Positions 1 to 57,637 of a stretch of DNA of 64,000 nt are shown here, piece by piece. The DNA is from Streptomyces paludis (GTDB lineage Bacteria > Actinomycetota > Actinomycetes > Streptomycetales > Streptomycetaceae). Positions within the stretch are counted from its first letter, which is position 1, and each line of letters begins with the position of its first letter. The stretch lies in assembly GCF_003344965.1 (NCBI RefSeq), contig NZ_CP031194.1, positions 7,874,001 to 7,938,000 of the forward strand, given 5' to 3'. The translations under genes and the position numbers were made by a program. Below the pieces are notes generated by a model. It had not been told where the DNA came from. It saw only the letters and a list, made by a program, of their open reading frames with translations, and did not search any database.

Positions 1-1
1 C

Positions 2-1138: not shown

Positions 1139-1197
1139 GGCGACCGCCGCCACCCCGGCCCGGCGACATCCTCGAACACACCAAGGGAGAGATGTTC

Positions 1198-4954: not shown

Positions 4955-24876
<19,922 letters not shown>

Positions 24877-24877
<1 letters not shown>

Positions 24878-26865
24878 CACTTCCCTCCGATCAGCGACGC
24901 GGCCCGGCGGCGGTCGACCACCGTCGTCACCTTCAGCTCGGTGTCCGGCGGAGTACGCATGTAATCGCTCCTGTCCCTCACGAACTGCTGGTTGAGCAGG
25001 GCTGTCGACAGCAGATGAATGAACGCGTGGTCCTCTTTCGTGCTGATGTCCGCCACGGGGGTGGACATGACCTTGGCGGCCAGCCGTTCCGCGAAGACCG
25101 GGTCGATTCCGTCGATCTCCTTGAGTTCCCTTCCGGAGAGCACCAGTTCCAGATAGTCGGGCCGGTGCTCCTGGAAGGATCCGCTGCCCGGCGCGCGGTA
25201 GGGCTGCTTGCGCCGGGTCAGGGGGTCCGCCGGGAGAAGTCCCTTGAACGCCTCTTTGAGGATGGCCTTCTCCTCCCAGCCGTCGTCGAAGCGCAGATTG
25301 ACCGAGGCGGCGGCCCGGACAACGGCCGGGTCGAGGAACGGGCACCGGTTCTCGACACCGTGGGCGAGCCCCATGCGTTCCCCCTGGCTGGACAGCAGAT
25401 AGCCGGCGAGCAAGGTCTTGAACTCCAGCCACTGGGCCTTCTGTGTCGGGGACAGCGCGGCATAGCCGGGGGTGTTCCCGACCAGCGCGAGCAGGTCCGC
25501 GAACGGCTCGGAGCGGTCCTTGAGCAGACGCTGGACGAACCGGCCGTTCTGATAGCGGAGTTCATGGGAGAACAGGCCCGGCAGCCGCTCCGAGGAGAAC
25601 TGGCTGAGCAGCCCCTTCATATGGGTCCGGTGCTCGGGGCCGAAGTGACTCAGCTCCGGATGCAGCACCGCGATCCGCCGGTCCCGTTCCTCATCGGGCA
25701 GGCCGTTCCACGCGGCGCGCAGCATCGTCTCGCGGAAGAGCGAGTAGCCGAGGAACGCCTCGTCGGCGCCCTCTCCGCTCAGGATGGTCTTTGTCCCGGC
25801 CTCGCGCACATGACGCGAGAGCAGATACATCGGGACGAGAGCCGTGCGGAACACGGGGACTTCGGCGTGGTGAACGGCCGCGGGGAAGTTCTCCGTGATG
25901 TCGGCCGTGGAGACCACGATGGAGGAGTGGCGTGTGCCGAGGTACCGCGCGACGGACCGCTGGCTGTCCGACTCGTCGAGGGACCGGTTCTCGAACTCGA
26001 CGGAGAAGGTGCGCACCTCGTGGGGCGAGAGATCGGTGGCGAGCCTGGTCACGATCGACGAGTCGAGACCACCGCTCAGATAGACGCCGACCTCGACATC
26101 GCTGCGCAGCCGTACCTCGACACTGGAGCGCAGCGTCTCGCGCACGAACGCCGCGGCCTGCGCCGCCGTACCCGCGAAAGGCTCGGCCTCGACGGCGAGT
26201 TCCTCGTACGTGTGCAGAGCGGTCCGCCCCGCGCGGACCGTGAGAAGTCCGCCGGGCGGCAGCTGGCGGACGCCCTTGAACGGGGACCGGTCCGGCAGCG
26301 GTGTCCAGAGTCCGAAGACCGACTTCAGCTCGTGCGGGTCGAGTGCGAACCGGAAGCCCGGGTAGGCGCGGAACGCCTTCATCTCCGAGGCGAAGAGGAA
26401 CCCGTCGCGGCCGGCCGTGTAGAAGAGCGGCCGCTTCCCGTACCGGTCACGGGCGAGAAAGAGTTCGTCCCCGACCGCGTCGCGGACGGCGAAGGCGAAG
26501 GCCCCGTTGAAACGCGGCAGACAGGCCGGTCCCCACTGGATCCACGCCTGGAGGACGACCTCCGTGTCCGACCGGGTACGGAACGGCCGGCCGAGCGCTC
26601 GCAGCTCCTCCCGCAGTTCGAGGTAGTTGTACAGCTCGCCGTTGAAGCAGATCGCATACCGCTCCGTGGCATCCGACATGGGCTGCGCGCCCGTCACGAG
26701 ATCGACGATCGACAGCCGTACGGTCCCCATGGCGACGTCGTCGTCGAGGTAGTAGCCCGCCCCGTCGGGTCCCCGATGGTGGATCTCGGACAGCATCGCC
26801 GTGATCACACCGGGGCGGCTGTCCGTGTGGAGCGACGAGGACGCGAAACCCGCTATTCCGCACAC
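24877..26865 (-). CDS. AsnB-like glutamine amidotransferase (malonamyl-ACP formation)
   Basis: This 662-residue asparagine-synthetase-type protein has a class II glutaminase half beginning MCGIAGF, so Cys2 is available as nucleophile once Met is removed. The synthetase half has the ATP-pyrophosphate loop YLSGGLDSS near residue 266. Length is normal for AsnB. In glutarimide polyketide systems the homologue transfers glutamine nitrogen to malonyl-ACP, giving malonamyl-ACP. Its placement between the discrete ACP and the PKS supports that role rather than asparagine supply. The start is a GTG that overlaps the ACP gene by 13 bp, and the stop overlaps the PKS start by one base, so all three are translationally coupled. 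Confidence 0.92.
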
Positions 26866-27134
26866 GGGGCACCTGCCTGCTGTGTGCCTTTCCCGTCCGC
26901 CCTTTCGGCCACGAACCTGTCGATCGCCTCCAGCGTGGTCGGAACCGCGAGGAGGAATTCCGCGCTTTCGGAGGTGAAGGCGAATTCCCGTTCGAGGAAC
27001 GACATCAGATGGATATATCCGAAGGAGTCTATGACTCCTTCCTTGAAAAGGTCGCTCTGCGGTGTGATGTCATCGCCGAACTCGATCAAGAACTGCTTCT
27101 CGATGAACTGGATGATTATCTCTGTCCTGGTCAC
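26853..27134 (-). CDS. Discrete acyl carrier protein (starter ACP)
   Basis: This 93-residue carrier protein has the phosphopantetheine serine in GVIDSFGYIHLM near residue 38. It starts with GTG behind a GAGGA site and is the first gene of the ACP-AsnB-PKS operon. In glutarimide clusters such an ACP carries malonyl while the AsnB homologue amidates it, and then hands malonamyl to KS1. Its helix I and II regions (FIEKQFLIEFGDDI, PQSDLFKEG) are more acidic and less GC-biased than the neighbours. The tail after about residue 80 is probably disordered. Confidence 0.9.
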   Translation of the reverse strand: MTRTEIIIQFIEKQFLIEFGDDITPQSDLFKEGVIDSFGYIHLMSFLEREFAFTSESAEFLLAVPTTLEAIDRFVAERADGKGTQQAGAPCAE

Positions 27135-27262: not shown

Positions 27263-27291
27263 ACTATCGAGGGTCCGAACAACAGTGTCAA
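27263..27291 (-). promoter_or_regulatory. Promoter of ACP-AsnB-PKS operon
   Basis: On the minus strand TTGACA (27291-27286), a 17-bp spacer and GATAGT (27268-27263) form a good vegetative-type promoter. The predicted start is near 27256, leaving a leader of about 120 bases before the ACP GTG. The same architecture occurs at two other operons in the window. Confidence 0.75.
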
Positions 27292-27309
27292 GAAAATAAT
27301 GTAGATAAA

Positions 27310-27332
27310 CTGGATCGCGTCACGCGATCCAG
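27310..27332. promoter_or_regulatory. LysR-type operator box 1 (perfect palindrome)
   Basis: Arms CTGGATCGCG and CGCGATCCAG flank a TCA centre and are perfectly complementary. The core ATCGC-N5-GCGAT (27314-27328) contains T-N11-A, the LysR-family pattern. Its centre is 30 bp upstream of the -35, about -65 from the predicted start, which is typical for LysR activation. The likely ligand is the LysR protein encoded at 45230. Confidence 0.72.
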
Positions 27333-27518
27333 CGGAATAGCTACACAAAAGCGCGAGAGGCCGCTAACGTCTTCGGTACGACGTCCGGTCCCGCATTCGG
27401 CGTTCATCGCGGCGTCGGCCCCCGGCTGATTCCCGCTGATTTCAGCCCGCCCCCGTGCCCCACGTCCGGCACCGCGGCCGACACCGACACCGACACCGCA
27501 CACACACTGGAGAGGTCC

Positions 27519-28181
27519 ATGAAGATCGGCATCATCGGCGCCGGCAACGTCGGCGGCAACCTCGTCCGGCGGCTCACCGCCCTCGGACACGAGGTGTCCG
27601 TGGCCAACTCGCGCGGCCCCCGGACGCTGACCGCTCTGGCACACGAGACGGGCGCGACCCCGGTCACCGCCGCCGACGCCGCCCGCGGCGCCGAGGTCGT
27701 GGTGGTCACCGTCCCGCTGAAGAGCGTCCCCGACCTGCCCTCAGGGCTCTTCGACGGGGCCGCCGACGGCGTGGCCGTCATCGAGACCTGCAACTACTAC
27801 CCCCAGCAGCGCGACGGCCGGATCGCAGGCATCGAGGACCAGGGGCTGACCGAGAGCCGCTGGACCGAGCGCCACCTCGGCCACCCGGTGGTCAAGGCGT
27901 TCGCCGGCACCTACGCCGAGGATCTCCTGAACCGGCCGCTCCCGGCGGGCTCGCCCGGCCGGCTGGCCGTCCCGGTCGCGTCCGACGACGAGGACGCGAA
28001 GAAGACCGTCCGGGCCCTGATCGACGAACTCGGCTTCGACACCGTCGACGCGGGCGGTCTCGACGACTCCTGGCGCCAGCAACCGGGCACCCCGGTGTAC
28101 GGGCTGAGGGCGGGCGCCGACGCGGTCGTCAGCGCGCTGGCCGCGGCGTCCCCCGAGCGCCCGGCGGAGTTCCGCGGCTGA
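27519..28181 (+). CDS. FNO-like NADP-binding oxidoreductase
   Basis: This 220-residue protein has the N-terminal dinucleotide fold GIIGAGNVGGNL and the phosphate-binding NSRGPRTL that mark the F420-dependent NADP oxidoreductase / ProC-like family (PF03807). Members move hydride between NADP(H) and F420 or reduce small substrates; the specific reaction here is unknown. The ATG at 27519 follows GGAGAGG. It lies 50 bp upstream of the UDP-glucose dehydrogenase on the same strand, so it may head that operon. It could supply reduced cofactor or reduce a ring double bond, which the PKS cannot do for lack of an ER. Both are guesses. Confidence 0.75.
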   Translation: MKIGIIGAGNVGGNLVRRLTALGHEVSVANSRGPRTLTALAHETGATPVTAADAARGAEVVVVTVPLKSVPDLPSGLFDGAADGVAVIETCNYYPQQRDGRIAGIEDQGLTESRWTERHLGHPVVKAFAGTYAEDLLNRPLPAGSPGRLAVPVASDDEDAKKTVRALIDELGFDTVDAGGLDDSWRQQPGTPVYGLRAGADAVVSALAAASPERPAEFRG

Positions 28182-28231
28182 CCCCCACTCCCTTCGCCCC
28201 GCCTCTGTCGCGAGAAGAATAGGCAGCTTCC

Positions 28232-29545
28232 ATGGGACTTTTACGTATCACCATTGTCGGAACCGGCTACGTCGGGCTGACCACCGGGGCCTGCCTGGCC
28301 TCCCTCGGGCACCGGGTGGTGTGCGCGGACGCCGACTGGCGCAAGATCGAACGGCTTCGGCGGGCCGAGGTCGACATCCTCGAACCGGGCCTGCCCGCGC
28401 TCGTCCGCGAGGGACTGGACTCCGGCCGGCTCCGCTTCGTATGGGACACCCGGGCCGCCGTCGAGGGCGCCGAGGTGGTCTTCCTCTGTCTGCCCACTCC
28501 CATGGGTGTCGAGGGCGCCGCAGACCTGGCCGCCGTCGAAGCGGTGGCCGACGAGGTCCGCGACCTCCTGCCGCACGGGTGCACGGTGGTCAACAAGTCC
28601 ACCGTGCCGGTCGGCACCGCCGAGCGCGTCGCGGCTCTGCTCCGCCGCCCCGATGTGACCGTGGCGAGCAACCCGGAGTTCCTCCGCGAGGGACACGCGG
28701 TGGACGACTTCCTCCACCCCGACCGCATCGTGGTGGGCGCCGCCGACCCGGAGGTCGCCCAGCGGGTGGCCGACCTCTACACGGGCATCGACGCGCCACG
28801 GGTGCTGACCGACACCGCCGGTGCCGAACTCGCCAAATACGCCGCCAACTTCTTCCTCGCGATGAAGCTGTCGTTCGTGAACAACCTGGCCACACTCTGC
28901 GAACGGCTCGGTGCGGACATCGACGACGTCGTCGCCGGTGTCGGCCACGACCCGCGCATCGGCGGCGCCTTCCTCAGCCCGGGGCCGGGATGGGGCGGCT
29001 CCTGCCTGCCCAAGGACACCCACGCGCTGCTGCGCCTCTGCGAGGACTCCGGCGTCGACTTCCCGCTGCTGCGGGCCGCCATCGAGACCAACGTCGAACA
29101 CCAGCGGCGGCTCGTCGCACGCGTACGGGCCGGATGCGCGGGGGAGGACGGATCGCTCCGCGGTGTCCGGCTCGCACTGCTCGGCCTCACCTTCAAGGCC
29201 GGCACCTCCGATCTGCGTGACTCACCCGCCCTGGCCCTGGCCCGCCGGCTGCGCGAGCAGGGCGCGGAACTGTACGCCTACGACCCGGCGCTCAGCGAAC
29301 TCCGCCCCGACTTCGGCGACTTGCTCACCATCACCCGCACCCCCTTCGAGGCGGTCGAGGAGGCCCGCGCCTGCGTCGTGCTCACCGAATGGCCCCAATT
29401 CCGCGAGCTGGACTGGGAATCCGTCGCCGCACGGCTCGGCGCGCCGCTCGTCTACGACTTCCGCAATGTTCTCGATCCCGTACGGCTCGACAAGGCCGGG
29501 CTGGTCCTGGAGAGCGTCGGCCGGACGCCGGCGACGGCGCGCTGA
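28232..29545 (+). CDS. UDP-glucose 6-dehydrogenase
   Basis: This 437-residue UDP-glucose/nucleotide-sugar dehydrogenase has an N-terminal NAD fold (VGTGYVGLTTGACLA) and the catalytic cysteine in GGSCLPKDTHAL near residue 258. A conserved C-terminal UDP-binding domain begins around residue 310 with LTFKAGTSDLRDSPA. It oxidises UDP-glucose twice to UDP-glucuronate in the cytoplasm. The next gene encodes a UDP-glucuronate decarboxylase, so the pair should make UDP-xylose. Codon 4 is TTA (28241-28243), the rare leucine codon read by the bldA tRNA, so expression may be developmentally limited. Confidence 0.92.
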   Translation: MGLLRITIVGTGYVGLTTGACLASLGHRVVCADADWRKIERLRRAEVDILEPGLPALVREGLDSGRLRFVWDTRAAVEGAEVVFLCLPTPMGVEGAADLAAVEAVADEVRDLLPHGCTVVNKSTVPVGTAERVAALLRRPDVTVASNPEFLREGHAVDDFLHPDRIVVGAADPEVAQRVADLYTGIDAPRVLTDTAGAELAKYAANFFLAMKLSFVNNLATLCERLGADIDDVVAGVGHDPRIGGAFLSPGPGWGGSCLPKDTHALLRLCEDSGVDFPLLRAAIETNVEHQRRLVARVRAGCAGEDGSLRGVRLALLGLTFKAGTSDLRDSPALALARRLREQGAELYAYDPALSELRPDFGDLLTITRTPFEAVEEARACVVLTEWPQFRELDWESVAARLGAPLVYDFRNVLDPVRLDKAGLVLESVGRTPATAR

Positions 29546-29666
29546 CCTCGCTTCCGCCTCGCCCCACCCGCTGTTCCTACCGCTCCCCACCCGCGGCACC
29601 CACCGCCGCGCGCACATCCGCGCACACCGCCCGTACACCCGCCCCACGACGTGGAGGACAAGCGCC

Positions 29667-30734
29667 GTGCCACACCCTCAAGCACCACATCCTCTCCCGC
29701 GAAACACCGCGGCCGTAAGCGCGTTCGCCGGCCGCACCGCCGTGGTCACCGGGGCCGCGGGGTTCATCGGGTCGCATCTGTGCGAGCGCCTGCTGGACCT
29801 GGGCGCCGAGGTGGTCGGCGTCGACAATCTGCTGACCGGCCGCCTCGACAACCTCTCCCACCTGTGTCCGGCCGACGGCTTCCGCTTCCGGACCGACGAT
29901 GTCGTCCGGCCGTTCACGGTGGCCGGTCCCGTGGACTTCGTCTTCCATCTCGCCTCGCCCGCCTCGCCGCTGGACTACGCCCGCCACCCGCTGGCCACCC
30001 TGAAGGCCGGCGCGACGGGCACCCTCCACGCGCTGGAGCTGGCCGGCGGGAAACACGCCCGGTTCCTGCTCGCCTCGACCTCCGAGGTGTACGGCGACCC
30101 GCTCGTCCATCCGCAGTCGGAGCGGTACTGGGGCAATGTCAACCCGGTCGGCCCCCGCAGTGTGTACGACGAGGCCAAGCGGTACGCCGAGGCCCTGACG
30201 TCCTGTTTCCAGCGCGCCGGTGACGTCAGCACACGTATCGTGCGGATCTTCAACACCTACGGCCCGAGGATGCGCGCCGACGACGGCCGGGCGGTGCCCG
30301 CCTTCATCCAGCAGGCGCTGGCGGGGGAGCCGATCACGGTGGCCGGTGACGGCAGCCAGACCCGCTCGCTGTGCTTCGTGGCCGACACCGTGGAGGGCCT
30401 GCTCGCCGCGGCCGCGGCGGAGCACACCGAACCGGTGAACGTGGGCAACCCGCACGAGATCACCGTGCTCCGGCTCGCCGAGGAGATCCGGGCGATGACC
30501 GGCTCCGCCTCCCCCCTCGCCTTCGTCCCCCTGCCCGCCGACGACCCCAAGCGCCGCTGCCCCGACATCACCGCCGCCCGCGACCACCTCGGCTGGGAGC
30601 CCGTGATCCCGCTGCGGGACGGTCTGCGCCGGACGATCGACTGGGCCGAGAAACACTTCCCCGCCGCCCGGAACACCGCCACCGCCACCGTTGCCACCGC
30701 CGCTGTTGCCACCACCGGAAGGAGCGCCTCGTGA
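29667..30734 (+). CDS. UDP-glucuronate decarboxylase (UDP-xylose synthase)
   Basis: This 355-residue SDR protein has the NAD motif GAAGFIGSHLCE, HLASPASP, the catalytic YxxxK in SVYDEAKRYAE near residue 170, and FNTYGPRM. This combination is characteristic of UDP-xylose synthase rather than 4-epimerases. It converts UDP-glucuronate to UDP-xylose with NAD kept bound. The GTG at 29667 is chosen because GGAGGACAA lies 8 bp upstream. The C-terminal 20 residues are a low-complexity Ala/Thr/Val stretch. The stop overlaps the GT8 start (GTGA). The 121-bp gap to the dehydrogenase shows nothing notable. Confidence 0.9.
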   Translation: MPHPQAPHPLPRNTAAVSAFAGRTAVVTGAAGFIGSHLCERLLDLGAEVVGVDNLLTGRLDNLSHLCPADGFRFRTDDVVRPFTVAGPVDFVFHLASPASPLDYARHPLATLKAGATGTLHALELAGGKHARFLLASTSEVYGDPLVHPQSERYWGNVNPVGPRSVYDEAKRYAEALTSCFQRAGDVSTRIVRIFNTYGPRMRADDGRAVPAFIQQALAGEPITVAGDGSQTRSLCFVADTVEGLLAAAAAEHTEPVNVGNPHEITVLRLAEEIRAMTGSASPLAFVPLPADDPKRRCPDITAARDHLGWEPVIPLRDGLRRTIDWAEKHFPAARNTATATVATAAVATTGRSAS

Positions 30735-31633
30735 CCACCGCCCCGCGCCCGCTGCCCGCACTCGTCTGCGGCGTCGACGACGGATACGCCCGCCCGCTGC
30801 GGACGCTGATGCGCTCGATCGCGGCCGCCCACCCCGGCACCCTCGACGAGCTGCGGCTGATCGTCCTCGACCAGCGGATCGGCAGCGCCAACCGGCAGGC
30901 GATCCTGCGGGACGCCGAACACCTCGGCCTGCACACCGAGTTGAGGCCGGTACCGCTGACCGACCCGCGCTACCCGGTCTCCGACTGGGTGAGCGCCGCG
31001 GTGTACGTACGCCTGGCCATCCCGCAGGTCGTCCCCGACGAACGGCGGGTGCTCTATCTGGACGCCGACACCCTGGTGCTCGGCGACCTCCGCCCGCTGC
31101 TGCGGCAGTCCCTCGGCGGACGCCCGATCGGCGCTGTCCGCGACCCGCAGAACCCGGTGATCGGACGCGGCATCCAGCTGCCGGGCTGGGAACAGCTCGA
31201 AGTCCCGTACGGCCGCGACTACTTCAACAGCGGTGTCATGCTCATCGACCTCGATCGCTGCCGGCGGCTCGGTGTGTTCGACCGGTCGCGGACGTTTCTG
31301 GCCGAGCACCCCGAGAAGGCGCGGTTCTGGGACCAGGACGCGCTGAACTGGGCCGTCGACGACAACTGGCAGCGGCTGGACCGGTGCTGGAACACCTTCG
31401 CCATGTCGCCGCAGGCCGCCCAGCCCGGCTTCATCCACTACGCGGAGGCGGACAGCCCGCTCGACCGGCTCCTGGACGACGAGAAGACCGCCGCCCTGGT
31501 GCACTACGCCGGCCCCGACAAGCCCTGGCAGGAAACCTACCCGGCCGGCCCGCTGCGGGACACCTACCGGCTTTTCCACAACGAAGTCACTGACGAAGTC
31601 ACCGACGACGTCACTGATGACGGTCCCGAGTGA
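30731..31633 (+). CDS. GT8-family retaining glycosyltransferase
   Basis: This 300-residue GT8 protein has the metal-binding DxD in YLDADTLVLGDL near residue 109 and the family-typical DYFNSGVMLIDL and FWDQDALNW motifs. GT8 enzymes use UDP-sugars and keep the alpha configuration; the family includes alpha-xylosyltransferases. Directly after UDP-xylose synthase (4-bp GTGA overlap) it is the best candidate to add alpha-xylose. The acceptor is unknown. Its C-terminus ends in acidic repeats (TDEVTDDVTDDGPE) coded by three 12-bp units. There is no signal peptide or membrane span, so it acts in the cytoplasm. Confidence 0.87.
   Translation: MTTAPRPLPALVCGVDDGYARPLRTLMRSIAAAHPGTLDELRLIVLDQRIGSANRQAILRDAEHLGLHTELRPVPLTDPRYPVSDWVSAAVYVRLAIPQVVPDERRVLYLDADTLVLGDLRPLLRQSLGGRPIGAVRDPQNPVIGRGIQLPGWEQLEVPYGRDYFNSGVMLIDLDRCRRLGVFDRSRTFLAEHPEKARFWDQDALNWAVDDNWQRLDRCWNTFAMSPQAAQPGFIHYAEADSPLDRLLDDEKTAALVHYAGPDKPWQETYPAGPLRDTYRLFHNEVTDEVTDDVTDDGPE
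31583..31618 (+). repeat. Three 12-bp repeats encoding an acidic C-terminal tail
   Basis: Three units of the form GA(A/C)GTCAC(T/C)GA(C/T) end the GT8 gene and encode EVTD/EVTD/DVTD. They extend the protein beyond the recognisable GT8 fold. Confidence 0.8.
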
Positions 31634-33183
31634 CCGGGCGAGGGCGCGGGCCGCTGTGGCGGAGCCCGGTCTGGTGGATCGCCGCGGCCGTGGCCGTACG
31701 CAACCTCAACGGCCAGCGGCAGGTCCGCCGGACGCTGGCCTGGGCCGACCGGCCCGCGCAAACCACGGACCGGATCGCAACGCCTGCGCCGCTGGTGCTG
31801 CACGTCGTCATCCCCGTACTGCGCGAGCAGCCGCACATCACCGGGGCGCTGAAGTGGTTCGTACCGCTGCTGCGCGACTTCCCCGGTTCGACCCTGACCC
31901 TGGTGTCCACGGCGCGCGAGGAGCGCGAGCGCGCGCACCTCGCCGCCGGGCTCGCGGGGGCGGGCGCCGCCGGCCTGACGGCGCGACGCTTCCCGCAGCT
32001 GACCGACGACGAGCTGACCGCCCTCGGCGAGGCCCTGGCCAAGGAGGGCGCGGGGGCGCTCAGCGCGGCGACGGCCGCCGAGACCCTCGCGGCCTTCCCC
32101 ACCACGGCGGATGTCATCGCGTACGAACGCGCGCGCCCGCGGGAGCCCGCCCCGCTGGTACGGCATGTCCACTACCGGGGGGAGGGGCGCAAGGCCGCGC
32201 AGGTGAACGCCGCCGTCGCCCAACTGACGGCCGGCTCCGACGAGTATGTCGCCGTCTACGACGTGGACTCCCGCCCGAGCCCGGAGCTGCTGCGCCGAAC
32301 CGCCGCGTTCGTGGCCCGCCGCCGCACGGAGGACGGCCGGATTCCCCGCGTCATCCAGCAGTCCGCCCGGTTCGTCACCCAGGACATGGCGGCCACCCGG
32401 TGGGAGCGGCGGCTGTGCCGGGGCGCCGCCCGGGCCCAGACGCTGTGGACCCTGCGCCGGGAGATCCCCGGCCTCCGCCGGCACGCCGACGCGGTCCGTA
32501 GCCGGCGCACCGGCTTCGGACCGCGGGGGCTGGCCCAGACCGTCGGCCACGGCCTGCTCGTCCGGGTGGATGTCTTCCGGGAGGTCGGCGGACTGCCCAC
32601 CTTCACGGTGCTCGACGACATGGCCTTCGGCTACCGGCTCACCGTGGCCGGTATCCCGGTCGACAGTCTGCCCTTCACCACCACCGTGCCGGCGGCGGAG
32701 TATCTGCCGGAGCTGCTCTCGCAGAGCGAGCGCTGGTTCCAGAGCTATCTCGACTACCCGAAGTGCGCGGCCCGTTGGTACGCCGAGGGCCACGGCAGCC
32801 GCCTCGGCCACGCGGCGGCGCTCACCATCGGTGCCTACCGGGGCGCGGCGTGGCTGCTGGTCTCCCCCGCGACGGCGGTATGCCTGGCCCTCGCGCTCGG
32901 TCCCCGCACCCGTCCGCCGGTCCGGGCAGCCGCCGCGACGGCGCTCTGGGCGGCGACCGTCGCGCCGGTCCGCTCGCTGGCCGCGGCCGGAGGCCGGCCG
33001 CTGACCGTACGGGAGACCGCCGTGCGGAGCGCGGAGACGCTGGCCGGGCTGCTGCTCAAGAGCCTCGGCCCGATGGCGGCGCTCGGCCGCCGGGCCCTGA
33101 CCGGCAGCCGGCACACCGCGCTCGCACCCAAGAGCAACCGCCGCCCGGGACCGCCGTCCGGGCGCCGGACCGGGCGCGGGTGA
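31630..33183 (+). CDS. GT2-family glycosyltransferase, QxxRW type, membrane-associated
   Basis: This 517-residue protein has GT2 features: HVVIPVLRE near residue 59, the DxD VYDVDSR near 212, an acceptor-side LDDMAFGYRL near 330 and QSERW near 367, matching the QxxRW motif of processive inverting GT2 enzymes. Hydrophobic segments at about 415-435 and 445-460 suggest membrane association. The GTG start overlaps the GT8 stop, so the two are coupled. The pairing could mean a cell-surface glycan rather than decoration of the polyketide; sequence alone does not decide. The C-terminus is basic and Pro/Arg-rich. Confidence 0.8.
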   Translation: MTGRGRGPLWRSPVWWIAAAVAVRNLNGQRQVRRTLAWADRPAQTTDRIATPAPLVLHVVIPVLREQPHITGALKWFVPLLRDFPGSTLTLVSTAREERERAHLAAGLAGAGAAGLTARRFPQLTDDELTALGEALAKEGAGALSAATAAETLAAFPTTADVIAYERARPREPAPLVRHVHYRGEGRKAAQVNAAVAQLTAGSDEYVAVYDVDSRPSPELLRRTAAFVARRRTEDGRIPRVIQQSARFVTQDMAATRWERRLCRGAARAQTLWTLRREIPGLRRHADAVRSRRTGFGPRGLAQTVGHGLLVRVDVFREVGGLPTFTVLDDMAFGYRLTVAGIPVDSLPFTTTVPAAEYLPELLSQSERWFQSYLDYPKCAARWYAEGHGSRLGHAAALTIGAYRGAAWLLVSPATAVCLALALGPRTRPPVRAAAATALWAATVAPVRSLAAAGGRPLTVRETAVRSAETLAGLLLKSLGPMAALGRRALTGSRHTALAPKSNRRPGPPSGRRTGRG

Positions 33184-33188
33184 TCCGG

Positions 33189-33389
33189 CTACGGCGGCTC
33201 GTCCAGCCGGATCGCCCTCCCCGGGCACACGGCGGCCGACTCCCGTACGGTGTCATGCGTCGCGGCGGGAGGGTGCCTGTCGAGAACCACGACCGTGCCG
33301 TCCTTCTCGTCCTGGTCGAAGACCTCCGGGGCGATCATCGCGCACTGCCCCGAAGAGACACACCTGGGGACGTCGACCTTTACGCGCAT
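33189..33389 (-). CDS. 3Fe-4S ferredoxin, P450 redox partner
   Basis: This 66-residue ferredoxin has cysteines in RCVSSGQC and a final CPGRAI, the three-cysteine pattern of Streptomyces [3Fe-4S] ferredoxins that feed electrons to P450s. The ATG at 33389 follows an AGAAAGGG site. A longer frame upstream lacks ferredoxin features and runs into the P450 gene. It is 50 bp downstream of the P450 on the same strand and ends 5 bp from the convergent GT2 gene. Confidence 0.92.
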   Translation of the reverse strand: MRVKVDVPRCVSSGQCAMIAPEVFDQDEKDGTVVVLDRHPPAATHDTVRESAAVCPGRAIRLDEPP

Positions 33390-33439
33390 GGTGGCCCTTT
33401 CTCCCTCAGCCGTACGGGAATTCCGGTCGCTTCCACGCA

Positions 33440-34657
33440 TCACCAGGTGACACGCATCTTCTGCAAGCCGTACACGATGTTGTTGCGTTTGAAGTCGGAT
33501 TCCTTCGGCGGAGTCGCCAGCCGGAGGTCCGGTATCCGGCGAAGCAGCGTGGACAGCGCGATCCGCATCTCGATACGGGCCAGTTGCTGACCGATACACG
33601 CGTGGGCGCCGAAGCCGAATGCCAGATGCCGGCGGCCCCGCCGGTCGAAATCGAGAGCGTCAGGGTCGGGGAACATGCTTTCGTCCCGGTTGCCGGACGG
33701 GGTCGCGGCGATGATCCACTCGCCCGACTTCACCTCGACATCGCCGACGGTGACATCCTCGGTGGCATACCGGATCAGCCCGAACTGAATCACCGAAAGG
33801 TAGCGCAGCAGCTCTTCCACGGCGGCATCGATCAATGAGGGATCGGCCCGCAGCGCGGCCGTCCGGTCCGGATTCTCCAACAGCAGCAGCATGCTCAACG
33901 CGATCATGTTGGCGGTGGAATCATGGCCGGCGACCAGCACCAGCTTGGCCAGCGTGGCCAGCTCACCCACCGCCAGCGGCCGGTCGGTCCCGTTGCCCCG
34001 TGCGATCAGCCGGCTGAGCAGGTCGTCCCGCGGCTCGATGAGCCGCTGCCCGATCAGCGCGCCGAGATAGGACTCCAGCCGGTGGTCCGCCTCCGCGCGG
34101 TCGGCGTCGGTCGCGTCGAAGCTCATCAGCACCTCGCTGGCGAGCTGGAACATCTCATGGTCGGCATAGGGCACACCGAGCATCTCGCAGATCACCATCG
34201 ACGGGATCGGCAGCGCGAAGTCACGCACCAGGTCGGCGCCGGTCCCGGCGAGCATCGCGTCGATGTGCTCGTCGGTGATCCTCTGGATGTACGGGCGCAG
34301 CGCCTCCATGCGCCGCACGGTGAACTCACCGACCAGCAGGCGCCGCAGCCGTGCGTGCTCCTCGCCGTCCAGCTGGGTGATGAAGCCCGGAATCGGGTCG
34401 TGCTCCTCGTAGGACGGCAGCATATGGTCCGACCCCGCGGCCCGGGAACTCAGCCGCTGATCCGAGAGCACCTCGCGGATGTCCTGGTACCGGCTGACCA
34501 GCCACGCGTCCATACCGGCCGGGCAGCGCACCAGCGATACGGGGTCATTCGCCCGCAGCTCGGCATAAGCCCGGTCGGGATCGAAGGGACAGGAATCCGG
34601 TCTGGTGGCCGGGAATTCGGAGATAACGGCATTCGCGTCAAGCCGGCCGATCGTCAT
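33440..34657 (-). CDS. Cytochrome P450 (second in the cluster)
   Basis: This complete 405-residue P450 has the I-helix AGHDSTAN near residue 245, ExxR in EELLRY, and the haem loop FGFGAHACIGQQLAR near 355. The start is ATG 34657 with GGAG 8 bp upstream. Together with the ferredoxin it forms a two-gene operon whose promoter carries a LysR-type box matching that of the PKS operon, so it probably oxidises the same product. It resembles macrolide-type tailoring P450s in motif pattern, but the substrate is unknown. Confidence 0.93.
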   Translation of the reverse strand: MTIGRLDANAVISEFPATRPDSCPFDPDRAYAELRANDPVSLVRCPAGMDAWLVSRYQDIREVLSDQRLSSRAAGSDHMLPSYEEHDPIPGFITQLDGEEHARLRRLLVGEFTVRRMEALRPYIQRITDEHIDAMLAGTGADLVRDFALPIPSMVICEMLGVPYADHEMFQLASEVLMSFDATDADRAEADHRLESYLGALIGQRLIEPRDDLLSRLIARGNGTDRPLAVGELATLAKLVLVAGHDSTANMIALSMLLLLENPDRTAALRADPSLIDAAVEELLRYLSVIQFGLIRYATEDVTVGDVEVKSGEWIIAATPSGNRDESMFPDPDALDFDRRGRRHLAFGFGAHACIGQQLARIEMRIALSTLLRRIPDLRLATPPKESDFKRNNIVYGLQKMRVTW

Positions 34658-34780
34658 GTGAGCAGCTCCAGAATACTGGGAACGGGGTAAATTCTTTTGG
34701 CACTCTCGAATGAGTGCGGGGTGCGCCGCGGTTGACGCAGACGGCCACCGTGGAGAGAGAATTCACCGGCCGCTGCGAAC

Positions 34781-34809
34781 ACTGTCGGTGACCCTGCTGA
34801 AGCGGTCAA
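34781..34809 (-). promoter_or_regulatory. Promoter of P450-ferredoxin operon
   Basis: On the minus strand TTGACC (34809-34804), a 17-bp spacer and GACAGT (34786-34781). The predicted start is near 34774, about 117 bases before the P450 ATG. Confidence 0.65.
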
Positions 34810-34827
34810 GCTGAATATTTCGATCTT

Positions 34828-34850
34828 CTGCATCGCTCTGTGCGATCCTC
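34828..34850. promoter_or_regulatory. LysR-type operator box 3
   Basis: The core ATCGC-TCTGT-GCGAT (34832-34846) has the same palindromic arms and T-N11-A spacing as box 1, and matches 15 of the 23 bases of the full box. Its centre is exactly 30 bp upstream of the minus-strand TTGACC. Confidence 0.62.
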
Positions 34851-34875
34851 GGCCGGCTCCTTCATCCCGTCATTC

Positions 34876-34898
34876 CTTCATCGCGCCACGCGATCCAG
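34876..34898. promoter_or_regulatory. LysR-type operator box 2
   Basis: The core ATCGC-GCCAC-GCGAT (34880-34894) lies in a 23-bp segment sharing 20 bases with box 1. Its centre is exactly 30 bp upstream of the plus-strand TTGACC. Confidence 0.7.
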
Positions 34899-34916
34899 TA
34901 CATCGAGGGAATTATC

Positions 34917-34946
34917 TTGACCGGTTCTCCCGGGGCCGCCGATAGT
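34917..34946 (+). promoter_or_regulatory. Promoter of SnoaL-ABC-GH31 operon
   Basis: TTGACC (34917-34922), an 18-bp spacer and GATAGT (34941-34946). The -10 is identical to that of the PKS operon. The predicted start near 34953 leaves a leader of about 45 bases. Confidence 0.7.
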
Positions 34947-34997: not shown

Positions 34998-35369
34998 ATG
35001 GAGCAGATTTCGAGGGCGCGCGTCGGGGAATTCCTGCGGCGACTGGAGGAGTTCGACTTCTCCGGCGCGCTGAAGCTGTGCACCGACTCGGCCGTCGTGT
35101 GGCAGAACGACGGCGAGGGCGAGCAGGCGATGGACAAGCGCCTGGACCATTTCAAGTCCTTCGTCACCACCGTCGCATCCCTGCGGTACGACGTGAACCA
35201 TCAGGTCGGTGAGGCGAACGAGGTGTTCCAGCAGCATGTGCTGCGCCTGGAGATGACCGACGGCTCGTCCGCGGAGGTCCACGCCGCCGTGTACTTCCAC
35301 CTGGACGGCGAACTGATCCACCGGATCGAGGAGTACGTCTACACCGTACCGGCGACCAGTGCGGCGTGA
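34998..35369 (+). CDS. SnoaL/NTF2-like small protein
   Basis: This 123-residue single-domain protein has the pattern of the SnoaL/NTF2 cone fold: an N-terminal helix pair (RVGEFLRRLEEFDFSGALKLCTDSAVVW) followed by beta strands ending AAVYFHLDGELIHRIEEYVY. I base this on pattern only. The family includes polyketide aldol cyclases, hydratases and non-enzymatic binders. The ATG at 34998 has AAGGGG 8 bp upstream; a GTG at 34965 would sit almost on the predicted transcription start. It is the first gene of the exporter operon, coupled to the ATPase by GTGA. Because the polyketide probably needs an aldol closure, it is a candidate cyclase. Confidence 0.68.
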   Translation: MEQISRARVGEFLRRLEEFDFSGALKLCTDSAVVWQNDGEGEQAMDKRLDHFKSFVTTVASLRYDVNHQVGEANEVFQQHVLRLEMTDGSSAEVHAAVYFHLDGELIHRIEEYVYTVPATSAA

Positions 35370-36400
35370 AGACCATCGAGGTACGCGGTCTCCGCAAGGA
35401 GTACCGGATACCGGAGAAGAAGCCGGGGCCGGCGGGCACGGTGCGGCACTTCGTACAGCCCCGGTACCGGACGAAGGTGGCGCTCGACGGAATCGGACTC
35501 GATGTCGGGGCGGGGGAGTCGGTCGGCTATCTCGGCTCCAACGGGGCCGGCAAGTCCACCACGATCAAGATCCTGACCGGTCTGCTGTCCGCGACGGACG
35601 GGCATGTCAGGGTGAACGGCTTCGAACCCCACCGGGACCGCAAGCGGCATGTGCGCGAGATCGGAGCGGTCTTCGGACACCGCACCGCGCTCTGGTGGGA
35701 CCTGCCGGTCATCGACTCGTTCAGGACCCTGAGCAGCATGTACCGGATCCCGCCCGCGGTGTACCGCGCCAATCTCGCCCTGTTCACCGAGCAGTTGGAG
35801 CTGGGGGACTTCCTCACCGTCCCCGTGCGTCAGCTCTCCCTGGGACAGCGCATGCGCGCCGATCTGGCCGCCGCCCTGCTGCACAACCCCAAGCTGATCT
35901 TCCTCGACGAGCCGACGGGCGGACTCGACGTCAACTCCAAGGCGTCCGTACGGCGGTTCATCCGCCGGCTCAACCAACAGCACGGCACAACCGTCTTCCT
36001 GACCAGCCACGACATGGCCGACATCGAGGGGATCTGCGACCGGCTCATCATCCTGGACCACGGCAGCAAGGTCCTCGACGACGACATCGTCAAGGTCAAG
36101 CACCGCCTCGCGGCCGACCGCCATCTCGTGGTGACCGTGGCCGGCTGCGAGGACGTGACCGAGGTCGTCCGCACCGTGTACGCCGCCACCGGCATCACCT
36201 GTACGGTGCTCGACCGGCAGCGGCTGTCCTGCGCGTTCGACCGGACGGAGACCAGCGCCGCGCACCTGGTCGGGGCCCTCATGCGGGACCACGAGATCGT
36301 CGACTTCGAGCTGCGCGAACCGACCCTCGAACACATCGTCCAGCGCCTCTTCCAGCGCTCTCCCGCCGTTCCCCCGGCCGCGGAGGTGCGCTCCCGGTGA
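35366..36400 (+). CDS. ABC transporter ATP-binding protein (ABC-2 type exporter)
   Basis: This 344-residue ATPase has Walker A GSNGAGKST near residue 58, signature LSLGQRMRADLAAALL near 155, Walker B LIFLDEPTGG near 178 and the switch histidine in LTSHDM. An extra C-terminal domain (about 240-335) is typical of ABC-2 antibiotic or lipid exporters. The GTG start overlaps the SnoaL stop, and its own stop overlaps the next start. With the two permeases it should form a heterotetrameric exporter in the cytoplasmic membrane. Product export is the obvious role given the shared LysR-type box. Confidence 0.9.
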   Translation: MKTIEVRGLRKEYRIPEKKPGPAGTVRHFVQPRYRTKVALDGIGLDVGAGESVGYLGSNGAGKSTTIKILTGLLSATDGHVRVNGFEPHRDRKRHVREIGAVFGHRTALWWDLPVIDSFRTLSSMYRIPPAVYRANLALFTEQLELGDFLTVPVRQLSLGQRMRADLAAALLHNPKLIFLDEPTGGLDVNSKASVRRFIRRLNQQHGTTVFLTSHDMADIEGICDRLIILDHGSKVLDDDIVKVKHRLAADRHLVVTVAGCEDVTEVVRTVYAATGITCTVLDRQRLSCAFDRTETSAAHLVGALMRDHEIVDFELREPTLEHIVQRLFQRSPAVPPAAEVRSR

Positions 36401-37185
36401 GCACCTTCCGCGCCCTGGTCGGCGCCGCGGCCCAGGAAGCCTTCATGTACCGCGGCCGGTATGTCGTGGGCGTCCTCATCAGCCTCGTCCAGCTGTCGGT
36501 GCTCTACTACATCTGGCGCGCCGTCATGAGCGGCGGACAGCACCAGGCCGGCTACGACTGGCCGCAGATGCAGACGTATCTGCTGCTGTCCTTCCTGCTG
36601 ACCCTCATGCTCTCCTACGCCACCGAGTACCGGGTGTCGGCCAGCATCCGCGACGGCAGCATCTCCATGGAACTGCTGAAGCCGGTGCACTACATGACAC
36701 TGCGCGCCGCCGAGCTGACCGCCGCGCTCCTCGTCGAGCTGCTGTCCGTCGGACTCTGCCTGGCCGTGGCCGTCCTGACCCTGCTGCCGGCCGTACCGCC
36801 GGAGGCCGGTTCGCGCGTCCTGCTGGCCCTGTCCTTCCTCCTCGCCGTGGCGCTGAAGGCCGTCATCGCGATCACCACGGGAATCCTCGGTCTGTGGACG
36901 ACCAACATGCTCGGACTCATCTCCTGCCGGCAGGCGCTGGCGCTGCTGCTCTCCGGCGCCATGTTCCCGTTGCAGATGCTGCCCGACTGGCTGCGCACCG
37001 TGGCCTACGCGCTGCCCTTTCAAAGCTCCTTCCACACGCCCATGATGATCTACTTCGGCCGGGTCGACGGCGAGGGGGCCGCCGGTCTCGTCGCGGTCCA
37101 GACCGGCTGGCTCGTCCTGCTGGCCGGTACGGCGGGGCTGCTGCTCACCCTGGGCTTCCGGCGGCTGGACAGCTATGGCGGCTGA
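36397..37185 (+). CDS. ABC-2 family permease subunit 1
   Basis: This 262-residue membrane protein has about six hydrophobic spans (first near residues 20-40, last near 235-255) and the features of the ABC2_membrane_6 group, including a cytoplasmic segment RDGSISMELLKPVHY after span 2. The GTG start overlaps the ATPase stop. It has no signal peptide. It pairs with the next permease to form the channel. Confidence 0.87.
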   Translation: MSTFRALVGAAAQEAFMYRGRYVVGVLISLVQLSVLYYIWRAVMSGGQHQAGYDWPQMQTYLLLSFLLTLMLSYATEYRVSASIRDGSISMELLKPVHYMTLRAAELTAALLVELLSVGLCLAVAVLTLLPAVPPEAGSRVLLALSFLLAVALKAVIAITTGILGLWTTNMLGLISCRQALALLLSGAMFPLQMLPDWLRTVAYALPFQSSFHTPMMIYFGRVDGEGAAGLVAVQTGWLVLLAGTAGLLLTLGFRRLDSYGG

Positions 37186-37975
37186 ACCGCGGACACCCGC
37201 CCTCTTCCACTTCACCCTCCTGCTAAGGCTTCAGTACCGGGCCAAGTCCGCCTACCGCGCCGATCTGGCGCTCCAGGTCGTCTCGGCGCTGCTGCGCCAG
37301 GGCACCTGGCTCGTCTTCCTGCTGGTGCTCCTGCGCCGCACACCGGCGGTCGACGGCTGGGACACCTGGAAGATGATCTTCCTCTACGGTCTGGCGACGG
37401 CCCCGCTCGGTCTCAATGTCCTGCTCTTCGACGGCGTCTGGAAACTGGACGAACTCATCCGCAAGGGCGATCTGGACTCCCTGCTGCTGCGTCCCGTCGA
37501 TCCGGTCGTGCAGCTGTTCACCAGGGATGTGAGTCTGCACGGCATCGGTGACCTCACCATCGGCGTCGCCGCCATGAGCCTGGCCGCGGACCATCTGACG
37601 CTTCCCTTCGGTCCGTGGACGCCGCTGATCGCGGTCCTGTGCGTGGTGTCCGGCAGTGTGCTCTACTGCTCCGTCAATCTGGCCTCGGCGGCGCTGGGCT
37701 TCTGGTTCCGGGAGCTGTACAACATCCCTTTTCTCGTGCAGCAGTTCACGGATCTGGCCCGGTTCCCGCTCACGATGTACCCCCGGCTGCTGGCGGCGCT
37801 CTTCCTCTTTCCGCTTCCCTTCGCGTTCGTCACCTATCTTCCGGTGGTCCTGATGACCGAGGGCGGCTCCCTCTGGGTCCTGGTGGCGGCGCCGGCCGCC
37901 GCTCTCGTCGCCCACGTGCTGGCGAGGCGGGTGTTCCTCCTCGGACTGCGGCGCTACGAGAGCGCCGGGAACTGA
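37175..37975 (+). CDS. ABC-2 family permease subunit 2
   Basis: This 266-residue partner of the preceding permease has the equivalent segment KGDLDSLLLRPVDPV and about six spans. The ATG overlaps the previous gene by 11 bp. The two permeases are clearly paralogous in layout, as usual for this exporter family. Confidence 0.87.
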   Translation: MAAEPRTPALFHFTLLLRLQYRAKSAYRADLALQVVSALLRQGTWLVFLLVLLRRTPAVDGWDTWKMIFLYGLATAPLGLNVLLFDGVWKLDELIRKGDLDSLLLRPVDPVVQLFTRDVSLHGIGDLTIGVAAMSLAADHLTLPFGPWTPLIAVLCVVSGSVLYCSVNLASAALGFWFRELYNIPFLVQQFTDLARFPLTMYPRLLAALFLFPLPFAFVTYLPVVLMTEGGSLWVLVAAPAAALVAHVLARRVFLLGLRRYESAGN

Positions 37976-37995
37976 AACACTCGAAAGGAGACCCG

Positions 37996-40317
37996 ATGAA
38001 ATTCACCGATGGCTACTGGACCCTCCGGGACGGGGTCGAGGCGTCCTGCCCCGTCGAGGCGTACCACGTCACCTCCGACCCGGACTCGCTGACCGTCATG
38101 GCCCCGGTCCGCCGGATCAAGCACCCGGGCGATCTGACACTGGGCCCCGTCGTCACCGTCCGCTGCACCAGCCCGATGCCGGACGTCATCGCGGTGGAGA
38201 TCACCCACTTCAAGGGGGTAAGGCCGCGCGAGCCGGAACTCCCGCTCGACGCCCCGGAACCGGCGTCCGTCGAGGTGTCCGTCGACGCCGGAGAGGCCGT
38301 CCTCACCAGTGGCGCGCTGTCGGTGCGCTTCGCCCGCGGTGACACCTGGCGCATGGACTTCCTGGCCGGCGGCCGTGTCCTGACCGGCAGCGGAGCCAAC
38401 GCCATGGCGGTGATCGAGGACGGCGGACAGTCCTATGTGCGCGAACAGCTCGACCTCGGTGTCGGGCAGCACGTCTACGGGCTCGGCGAACGCTTCGGGC
38501 CGCTGGTGCGCAACGGCCAGTCCGTCGACATCTGGAACGCGGACGGCGGCACCTCCACCGAACAAGCCTACAAAAACGTGCCGTTCTATCTGACGGACGC
38601 CGGCTACGGGGTCTTCGTGCACGACAGCGGCAAGGTGTCGTACGAGGTGGCCTCGGAGGCGGCGACCCGTGTCCAGTTCAGTGTGGCCGGCCAGTCGATG
38701 CGCTACCTCGTCGTCCACGGCCCCACACCGAAGGACATCCTCCGCCGCTACACCGCGCTGACCGGCCGCCCCGCCCGGCTGCCGGCCTGGTCCTACGGCC
38801 TGTGGCTGTCCACCTCCTTCATGACCACCTACGACGAGGACACCGTCAGCTCCTTCATCGACGGCATGGCCGAACGGAACCTGCCCCTGTCGGTGTTCCA
38901 CTTCGACTGTTTCTGGATGCGGGAGTACCAGTGGTGCGACTTCACCTGGGACCCGCGGGCGTTCCCCGATCCGCCCGGCATGCTCAAGCGGCTCAAGGCC
39001 CGCGGGCTCAGCATCTGCCTCTGGATCAATCCGTACATCTCCCAGCTCTCACCGCTGTTCGCCGAGGGCCAGGAGAACGGCTACCTGCTGCGCAGGACCA
39101 ACGGCGACATCTGGCAGGGGGACCAGTGGCAACCCGGCCTGGCCATCGTGGACTTCACCAATCCGGCCGCCCGCACCTGGTTCGCCGACAAGCTCGGCGC
39201 GCTCCTGGACATGGGCGTGGACTGTTTCAAGACCGACTTCGGGGAGCGCATCCCCCTGGACGTGGCCTACTTCGACGGCTCCGACCCGGAGCGTATGCAC
39301 AACCACTACGCCTACCTCTACAACCAGGTGGTGTTCGACCTGCTGGAACGGCGCCGGGGCCGGGGGGACGCGGTGCTGTTCGCCCGCGCGGCCTCGCCCG
39401 GCACCCAGCGCTTCCCGGTGCACTGGAGCGGCGACGGTGAGGCGACCTTCGCGGGCATGGCCCAGAGCCTGCGCGGCGGGCTGTCGCTCGGACTGTCCGG
39501 CTTCGGCTACTGGAGCCACGACATCGGCGGGTTCATCGGGCTCCCCGACGCCGCGGTGTTCAAGCGGTGGGTCGCCTTCGGGCTGCTCTCCTCGCACAGC
39601 CGTCTGCACGGAGGCGACTCCTACCGCGTTCCCTGGATCTTCGACGAGGAGGCCGTCCGGGTCCTGCGCGACTTCACCCGGCTGAAGCTCCGGCTCATGC
39701 CGTACCTCGGACGGATCGCCGACGAAGCGCACACCGACGGTCTGCCGATGATGCGTCCCATGGTCCTGGAGTTCCCGGACGACCCGTCCTGCGCCTATCT
39801 GGACACGCAGTACATGCTGGGCGACGCGCTGCTCGTCGCGCCGGTCTTCTCCGCCGAGGGCGATGTCCGCTACTACATACCGGAGGGGCGCTGGACCGGG
39901 CTGCTGTCCGGGGAGACGGTCACGGGCCCCCGCTGGGTCGAGGAACGACACGGCTTCGACAGCCTGCCGCTGCTGGTCAGGCCCGGAACGGTGCTTCCCT
40001 TCGGTGCCGTGGACGACCGGCCCGACTACGACTACGCCACGGGTGTGGTGCTGCGGATCTACTCCCCGCCCGAGTCGATGCGGACGACGACGAGGATCGT
40101 GACGCCCGGGGGCGAGCTGTCCGCGGTCTTCACGGTCGAGCGGGACGGCGGCCGGACACGGGTCACGGCGGACCGCCCGGTACGGGACTGGGCCGTGCTG
40201 CTCGTGGGCGAACCGGTACCCGCCCCGGTCCACGGCGCCGTGGCCGAACGGGTGGCGGAGGGGGCGCTGCTGCGGGCCCTGCCCGGCGCGCTCACCATCG
40301 AGGCCGGTGGTGAGTGA
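37996..40317 (+). CDS. GH31 alpha-xylosidase, YicI type
   Basis: This 773-residue protein is nearly the length of E. coli YicI (772) and shares its layout: an N-terminal start MKFTDGYWTL, the catalytic nucleophile Asp in FKTDFGERIP near residue 418, and the acid/base Asp in HWSGDGEATF near 478, then RGGLSLGLSG. YicI-type enzymes hydrolyse alpha-xylosides with retention. There is no signal peptide, so it acts in the cytoplasm. AAGGAG sits 5 bp before the ATG, 20 bp after the exporter genes, in the LysR-box operon. Together with UDP-xylose synthase and a retaining GT8 it implies a removable alpha-xylosyl group, on product or storage glycan. Alternatively it degrades plant xyloglucan fragments. 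Confidence 0.9.
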   Translation: MKFTDGYWTLRDGVEASCPVEAYHVTSDPDSLTVMAPVRRIKHPGDLTLGPVVTVRCTSPMPDVIAVEITHFKGVRPREPELPLDAPEPASVEVSVDAGEAVLTSGALSVRFARGDTWRMDFLAGGRVLTGSGANAMAVIEDGGQSYVREQLDLGVGQHVYGLGERFGPLVRNGQSVDIWNADGGTSTEQAYKNVPFYLTDAGYGVFVHDSGKVSYEVASEAATRVQFSVAGQSMRYLVVHGPTPKDILRRYTALTGRPARLPAWSYGLWLSTSFMTTYDEDTVSSFIDGMAERNLPLSVFHFDCFWMREYQWCDFTWDPRAFPDPPGMLKRLKARGLSICLWINPYISQLSPLFAEGQENGYLLRRTNGDIWQGDQWQPGLAIVDFTNPAARTWFADKLGALLDMGVDCFKTDFGERIPLDVAYFDGSDPERMHNHYAYLYNQVVFDLLERRRGRGDAVLFARAASPGTQRFPVHWSGDGEATFAGMAQSLRGGLSLGLSGFGYWSHDIGGFIGLPDAAVFKRWVAFGLLSSHSRLHGGDSYRVPWIFDEEAVRVLRDFTRLKLRLMPYLGRIADEAHTDGLPMMRPMVLEFPDDPSCAYLDTQYMLGDALLVAPVFSAEGDVRYYIPEGRWTGLLSGETVTGPRWVEERHGFDSLPLLVRPGTVLPFGAVDDRPDYDYATGVVLRIYSPPESMRTTTRIVTPGGELSAVFTVERDGGRTRVTADRPVRDWAVLLVGEPVPAPVHGAVAERVAEGALLRALPGALTIEAGGE

Positions 40318-41346: not shown

Positions 41347-41432
41347 GCCGCTCCCTCTTGAAGGCGCACATCTCCCCAGATGCGCATGCATTTCCCCCTG
41401 GCCTGGACCAGCGGAGACCCCTGTAAAGTAAA

Positions 41433-41443
41433 GGGTGTTCGTT
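41433..41443. promoter_or_regulatory. Candidate receptor operator between afsA-like and receptor genes
   Basis: The AT-rich segment around GGGTGTTCGTT lies between the divergent synthase and receptor genes, 31 bp before the receptor start and next to a -10-like TAAAGT (41424-41429). The same 11-mer recurs upstream of the transposase gene. Receptors of this family normally bind here, but no clear inverted repeat supports it. Confidence 0.4.
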
Positions 41444-41473
41444 TTGTTTGTCGAGTGGAGCCGAGGATTTTTG

Positions 41474-43056: not shown

Positions 43057-43075
43057 CAGGGCACCCCGTAGCGGG

Positions 43076-46168: not shown

Positions 46169-46212
46169 TCCGACCGGCGGCCACGGACGTCCTCAACGCT
46201 CTGGGAGGCATC

Positions 46213-57636: not shown

Positions 57637-57637
57637 G

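Follow-up and report, generated by a model that had tools for sequence, protein, structure and literature searches.

Four promoters with one element geometry and a putative LysR-type activator in a cycloheximide-type polyketide cluster of Streptomyces paludis

A single cluster-situated activator of the LysR type is predicted to run a cycloheximide-type glutarimide polyketide cluster of Streptomyces paludis through one element that recurs ahead of four operons. The cluster was analysed in a window of 64,000 nucleotides (assembly GCF_003344965.1, contig NZ_CP031194.1, positions 7,874,001 to 7,938,000 of the forward strand; positions given below are those of the window unless otherwise indicated). 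The regulator gene (45230..46168, + strand) is the first of the set LysR-AT-glycosyltransferase, AT being a discrete malonyl transacylase, and its product is the candidate binder of the boxes. In the mechanism that we propose, a LysR tetramer would occupy the inverted repeat TGNATYGC-N5-GCGATNCA, whose centre would lie some 65 bp ahead of the transcription start (recognition site). It would also contact TGCATCGA, a third half-site located two helical turns further downstream (activation site), and would recruit RNA polymerase to TTGACC-17/18-GATAGT. The four predicted target promoters are those of the core operon (acyl carrier protein, AsnB and polyketide synthase; ACP-AsnB-PKS), the tailoring operon (ketoreductase, P450 and carboxylic acid reductase; KR-P450-CAR), the P450-ferredoxin operon and the SnoaL-exporter-GH31 operon. 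The usual picture of LysR proteins comprises a recognition site plus an activation site, and the palindrome arms and the third half-site fit it. From the sequence evidence, we give a probability of about 0.87 to the proposal that LysR binds and activates most of the four promoters, and in any case that of the tailoring operon; that all four, exporter and GH31 included, answer to it seems likely, although with less assurance. All four operons would act in the synthesis or transport of a single product. Cycloheximide and other glutarimide polyketides are classic ribosome inhibitors in eukaryotes.

Three of the promoters lie in the window and were read base by base. Promoter 1 (27263..27328, - strand), ahead of ACP-AsnB-PKS, has its box at 27314-27328 (centre 27321), a -35 hexamer TTGACA at 27291-27286, a spacer of 17 bp and a -10 hexamer GATAGT at 27268-27263. 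Promoter 2 (34781..34846, - strand), which serves P450-ferredoxin, has the box at 34832-34846 (centre 34839), TTGACC at 34809-34804, 17 bp of spacer and GACAGT at 34786-34781, and promoter 3 (34880..34946, + strand), for SnoaL-ABC-GH31, has the box at 34880-34894 (centre 34887), TTGACC at 34917-34922, 18 bp of spacer and GATAGT at 34941-34946. The distance from the box centre to the first -35 base was 30 bp at the three promoters. All these boxes, hexamers, coordinates and spacings had been claimed in a preliminary description of this DNA and were found to be exact; the gene contents that it had given to the three operons were also right by family searches, with weak matches for the ACP and the ferredoxin recognised by sequence. 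The T-N11-A core sits inside an ATYGC-N5-GCGAT palindrome centred 30 bp ahead of the -35, and at promoter 1 the longer arms form a perfect inverted repeat of 10 bp, CTGGATCGCG-N3-CGCGATCCAG. The classical rule for activation by LysR-type transcriptional regulators (LTTR) places a T-N11-A site centred about -65 of a sigma-70-type promoter, and the palindromic T-N11-A was here near -65, a position computed from the hexamers.

The element is rare in this genome. When the 8,454,852 bases were scanned with the box pattern ATCGC-N5-GCGAT, 15 exact boxes were obtained genome-wide; three of these occurred in the window, where 0.17 would be expected by chance, and three were not reached in any of 100 shuffles. 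The box alone was not enriched at up to two mismatches (49 in the window vs. 47.3 expected), and the evidence thus rests on the exact box together with the promoter. The exact box followed by 22 nt and TTGAC appeared only three times in the whole genome, at the window copies. A box with one mismatch and TTGAC at 22 nt was present at three further places, one of which adjoins the cluster. This fourth promoter (G000:C1:7872935-7872977, 1.07 kb ahead of the window, box centre at window position -1058) consists of ATTGCGCGATGCGAT, 22 nt, TTGACC, 17 nt and GACACT, thus keeping the spacing with one mismatch. The other two places were unlike these promoters, one scoring 10.8 with the 42-bp matrix described below and the other without a match above 5. 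With the extended box and no -35, the genome-wide scan recovered the four sites with one mismatch allowed and, beyond them, only three places, each with three mismatches. Both scans leave only four sites, so that the regulon of this genome appears to consist of four promoters; many copies of the arrangement at unrelated genes, which the preliminary description had named as evidence against its proposal, were not found in the whole-genome motif scan. The flanks upstream of the four sites looked unrelated by eye, the 43-bp element itself being kept.

Relatives were collected through a genome scan for AsnB, from which the best 80 of 221 loci were kept, and those 24 loci whose AsnB was 64% identical or more (L011-L033 and L058) were carried on with their whole genomes. 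The exact box with strict geometry gave few matches within the 10-kb flanks of relatives. A short pattern allowing up to two mismatches also returned chance-like matches, with at least two extra one-mismatch cases in G003 and at least two in G007, which has no LysR, and a longer pattern was therefore adopted. The 42-bp matrix was trained on nine sites, of which four were own and one each came from G001 and G003-G006, and it detected the sites of G002 (S. noursei) and G027, both outside its training set, and all 20 collected sites scored 52-70. Alignment of these 20 sites, which come from 14 genomes and include the four own, gave TG.ATYGCa..a.GCGATcCAgtgCATCGAaAtaaTca..TTGACC followed by GATAGT-like hexamers, with little conserved further upstream; the extended motif reads TGNATYGC-N5-GCGATNCA-N4-ATCGA, then TTGACC. 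A box-only matrix without the -35, made from the same 20 sites (34.5-62.9 for these by construction), revealed no strong box at any other spacing in the own region and 29 loci.

Occurrence of the element coincided with that of LysR. The long pattern was written after seeing the sites of the own genome, G001-G006 and G027, and G090, G099, G124, G139, G173, G381, G423 and G425 were unseen at that moment. At up to two mismatches it was present in nine of 392 genomes of the genus (15 sites), and a reversed-pattern control on the same 392 genomes gave none among the matches listed. Close relatives of LysR (59-67% identity, the own protein aside) were found in exactly the same nine genomes (one-sided Fisher test, 1.8e-18, ignoring relatedness), the next best LysR proteins, from 26 other genus genomes (E ≤ 1e-50), reaching up to 44% identity. 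Exactly three mismatches added three more; pattern matches at this level in G086, G114 and G256 were discarded as chance, with no LysR match at 1e-50 and matrix scores of 6-15 vs. 52-70. Among the 24 glutarimide-core genomes, LysR (60-68% identity) was present in 13, and the element at up to one mismatch in exactly these 13, whereas the 11 core genomes without LysR had no element at up to three mismatches (Fisher test, 4.0e-7, again ignoring relatedness). Both sets share records: four of the 13 core genomes are genus-set genomes by identical coordinates (G005/G199, G421/G124, G424/G099, and G428/G139) and two more pairs have identical sites (G427/G381 and G422/G027), so that the union amounts to 18 records, perhaps 16 distinct strains or species. 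The element follows LysR rather than the glutarimide core. The coincidence in 9/392 and 13/24 genomes supports the earlier suggestion that LysR is the binder, and the shared regulon proposed in the preliminary description is supported as well; the geometry revealed a fourth promoter beyond the stretch shown to its reader, and this promoter and the glutarimide, cycloheximide-like nature of the cluster go further than what had been claimed there.

The regulator itself presented the domains of an LTTR (PF00126 HTH_1, 1.9e-20; PF03466 LysR_substrate, 3e-24), and sequence comparison with the Protein Data Bank retrieved LTTR structures, 3fzv being the best (1.8e-40). Across 13 orthologs, the winged-helix/helix-turn-helix (HTH) region (residues 12-72) was conserved to a mean identity of 87%, as compared to 58% for the ligand domain, and residues 38-43 (QSTVSS) were invariant in all of them; for 21 more distant LysR proteins the corresponding values were 54 and 35%. 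The gene order LysR-AT-ACP-AsnB-PKS was found in G002-G005, and in others LysR was near the tailoring operon. The two TetR proteins of the window (TetR1 and TetR2) and AfsA had no match in the relatives' stretches searched, though the box was present there, which leaves LysR as the only regulator seen in common. An AfsA/ScbA-type gamma-butyrolactone synthase gene (40408-41520) is divergent from one TetR gene, another TetR gene being close by (TetR genes at 41435-42100 and 43076-43711), and this region, 40408-43711, could be a second regulatory layer. A DDE_5 transposase-like open reading frame (ORF; 43877-45166) sits directly ahead of the LysR gene and is perhaps a trace of the separation of LysR-AT from the core.

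The targets differed in how widely they recurred. The element stood ahead of the tailoring operon in 13 of 13 annotated LysR-bearing relatives, a count that excludes G422, G423, G425, and G427, in which the element is present and the genes beside it are not annotated. Two of these 13 (G381 and G173) had additional sites, which stand at P450 or SnoaL genes unlinked to the cluster. In G381, a divergent pair of sites lies 2.1 Mb from LysR, with a P450 70% identical to the P450 behind promoter 2 (P450b) on one side and a CoA-transferase operon on the other; the same pair was found in G427, on a contig other than that of its LysR. In G173, a site on another contig precedes a SnoaL homolog (52% identity). 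P450b and SnoaL also lead two operons of the window, which indicates that their link to LysR is more than a peculiarity of one genome. The CoA-transferase III operon of G381 (L155 8509-9750 and upstream), with its LysR element divergent from the unlinked P450b, is a candidate for a pathway step so far unrecognised. The next non-mirrored match of the box-only matrix, L157:10330 in G173, which is not a training site, scored 19 and is likewise followed, at that spacing, by TTGACC, with GACAGT 17 nt further along; this degenerate element (score 19-23) points away from the SnoaL site, and the ORF behind it looks by eye like a glycosyltransferase-like piece.

As regards the core, a BTAD (SARP-like) gene was located within about 1.5 kb of the core AT in at least nine of the 13 LysR-bearing core genomes (G001, G006, G421-G425, G427, and G428); this search covered 16 genomes, and the count refers to the 13 of them that have LysR. 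The BTAD model also matched in six of 14 well-known genomes used as control, so that a BTAD match alone is no proof of a SARP (Streptomyces antibiotic regulatory protein). Among the 16 matches listed in the S. paludis genome, the nearest was about 40 kb from LysR. SARP control of the window's core was rejected, since there was no BTAD match nearby. In the relatives examined, the tailoring operon is the constant predicted target and the core often stands beside a SARP-like gene; control of the core may have switched from SARP to LysR in the lineage of the window.

Several observations weigh against the proposal that LysR controls most or all of the four promoters. L011, the nearest cluster (AsnB 81%), carries the tailoring-operon site only, its core, P450b, and SnoaL genes being without one, so that the support for three of the four targets comes from this genome and from the two unlinked cases. 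For the exporter, GH31, and glycosyltransferase, no convincing counterpart was found in the relatives' stretches, and the exporter/xylosidase operon under the element was repeated in no relative examined. At residues 16, 46, 50, and 51 of the HTH region the window LysR is unlike every one of the 13 orthologs, and the LysR gene has no autoregulation box (no box-only matrix match above 8 in the window and the relatives' loci scanned), so that the classical divergent autoregulation was not seen. The genomes counted for co-occurrence are related and not independent, and absences in the scan of the 392 genomes are less firm because five LysR candidates were scored per genome; a deeper scan with up to 55 candidates per genome was positive in two of 41, the own genome and G027, both among the nine.

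Three other explanations were considered. LysR might control only the tailoring operon, possibly with some further ones, and the promoters of the core and the exporter would be alike by descent as copied pieces and run mainly by other signals; the single site, at the tailoring operon, in 11 of the 13 annotated relatives and the SARP-like gene beside the core in most LysR-bearing core genomes speak for this, whereas the 43-bp element kept between flanks unrelated by eye, together with the distance of about 40 kb to any BTAD match in this genome, speak against it, and we regard it as improbable, though the strongest of the three. In another explanation, a different cluster regulator (one of the two TetR proteins, or a gamma-butyrolactone system with AfsA) would bind the boxes while LysR merely travels along. 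Palindromic boxes suit TetR proteins too, and the TetR and AfsA genes sit between the operons. However, these three proteins are without a match in stretches of relatives that have the box, the box goes with LysR in both genome sets, and its position and T-N11-A core agree with activation by a LysR protein, to judge from the portion of the PltR lys box account considered here (PMC3382589), all of which makes this version very unlikely. Finally, that the boxes are chance or inert matches would agree with the occurrence of box-like 15-mers in coding DNA (15 exact ones genome-wide, and no enrichment at two mismatches), but the promoter at zero mismatches is found only at the cluster copies, shuffles and reversed patterns fall short, and there is the co-occurrence with LysR; we consider it close to negligible.

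The genes under the element fit a cluster of cycloheximide type, as judged from sequence: a glutarimide core plus a tailoring set matching the cycloheximide genes in the sections consulted of PMC4853412. The downstream part of the tailoring operon (1..4704, + strand) lies behind promoter 4, and comprises a ketoreductase as the first gene (G000:C1:7873050-7873856, outside the window), a P450 as the second (to 1138, + strand) and an A-PCP-reductase carboxylic acid reductase at the end (1135-4704, + strand). A gene for an OYE-family enoylreductase runs divergently from this operon, so that the four enzymes of the chxG-H-I-J set were found together; the enoylreductase was 77-81% identical to that of 13 relatives' loci and the ketoreductase 64-79% to that of 12, a count that omits L093 because the gene spans the L093/L094 cut. 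The modular PKS (4955..24859, - strand) showed three ketosynthase (KS) domains, a dehydratase, a KR, and ACPs in its N-terminal 3,222 residues, the part scanned, and no integrated AT there. A stretch without family assignment between the second KS and an ACP is roomy enough for a glutarimide-closing branching/X domain. With the AsnB-type amidotransferase (24877..26865, - strand), the ACP (26853..27134, - strand; no Pfam match, named from weak family matches and relatives at the same place) and the discrete AT (46153..47085, + strand), these four components of a glutarimide AT-less PKS cluster were found together, and the discrete AT would serve the AT-less PKS. A conserved minus-strand gene at 46144-47136 was rejected as the antisense frame of the AT gene.

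Behind promoter 2 are P450b (33440..34657, - strand) and downstream of it a ferredoxin-like ORF (33189-33455, - strand; named from its sequence, without an NCBIfam match). The operon of promoter 3 (34998..40317, + strand) contains a SnoaL-like gene (34998-35369; ATG start picked by eye in an ORF from 34965), an ABC ATPase (35366-36400), two ABC-2 permeases (36397-37185 and 37175-37975) and, as the last gene, a GH31 alpha-xylosidase (about 37996-40317).

A cluster-situated LysR activator is a known kind of system, of which this regulon would be a new case; no published account of it was found in the open-licence literature, which was the range of the search, subscription papers being outside it. 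In the sections consulted of PMC4853412, chxF is the regulator of the cycloheximide tailoring sub-cluster, and in S. noursei ATCC 11455 and strain 769 it stands next to the glutarimide core, at the place that a SARP occupies in other clusters. In the S. noursei A-2-1 locus (L027), a LysR ortholog (61%) is at that place in the order LysR-AT-ACP-AsnB-PKS, the companion genes are the same (enoylreductase, here of the OYE family, KR, P450, and CAR), and the place of LysR in the loci of S. noursei and S. griseus matches that of chxF. The window LysR is probably the counterpart of chxF, the two being likened by position and not by sequence. It differs in that it heads LysR-AT-glycosyltransferase, with the box also on the core, and in that the main text of PMC4853412 does not use the word LysR and the parts consulted give no binding site.

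PltR, the LysR activator of the Pseudomonas pyoluteorin operon, has a 22-bp lys box from -74 to -53 supported by gel shift and mutations, as described in the sections consulted of PMC3382589. PltR and, by prediction, the present LysR are activators of biosynthetic operons with a T-N11-A palindrome. Organism, product, and sequence are other, and PltR serves one operon adjoining pltR vs. four promoters here plus unlinked loci in relatives. ChxA and MgsA, SARP regulators of glutarimide clusters in the parts consulted of PMC6627628, likewise regulate cores of this kind from within the cluster; in contrast, they belong to another protein family, of which no member was found near the present cluster, and the core promoter here has a LysR-type box.

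According to a published model (PMC4853412), the core genes of glutarimide polyketides and their tailoring genes had separate evolutionary histories before their fusion under one or two regulators. The motif offers a direct readout for this fusion model, predicting which promoters answer to LysR, and reveals a lineage with the LysR element on the core and no SARP-type gene nearby. It also flags candidate pathway genes at unlinked loci, which would escape a search by clustering alone, and in this strain it assigns the exporter, the GH31 enzyme and the PKS to one predicted regulon. The regulon goes beyond the window both in size and in its distribution among relatives. A tentative extension, which we hold to be rather less probable than its opposite, is that the 43-bp LysR element acts as a portable wiring tag through which the cycloheximide-type pathway was assembled, genes joining the regulon before or without joining the cluster, as with the unlinked P450 and CoA-transferase operons of G381 and SnoaL of G173, and that in the lineage of the window this tag spread to the core and replaced SARP control; if this were true, tagged unlinked genes would be unrecognised pathway steps.

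A macrolide-type glycosyltransferase gene (47078-48493) overlaps the end of the AT gene, and because of this overlap it is probably within the LysR-AT operon. Taken with the GH31 alpha-xylosidase of the predicted regulon, it points to a possible glycosylated form of the product. Sugar-use genes (a LacI regulator, sugar ABC transporters, a PfkB kinase, and RbsD) occupy 51020-63739 and probably lie past the right edge of the cluster.

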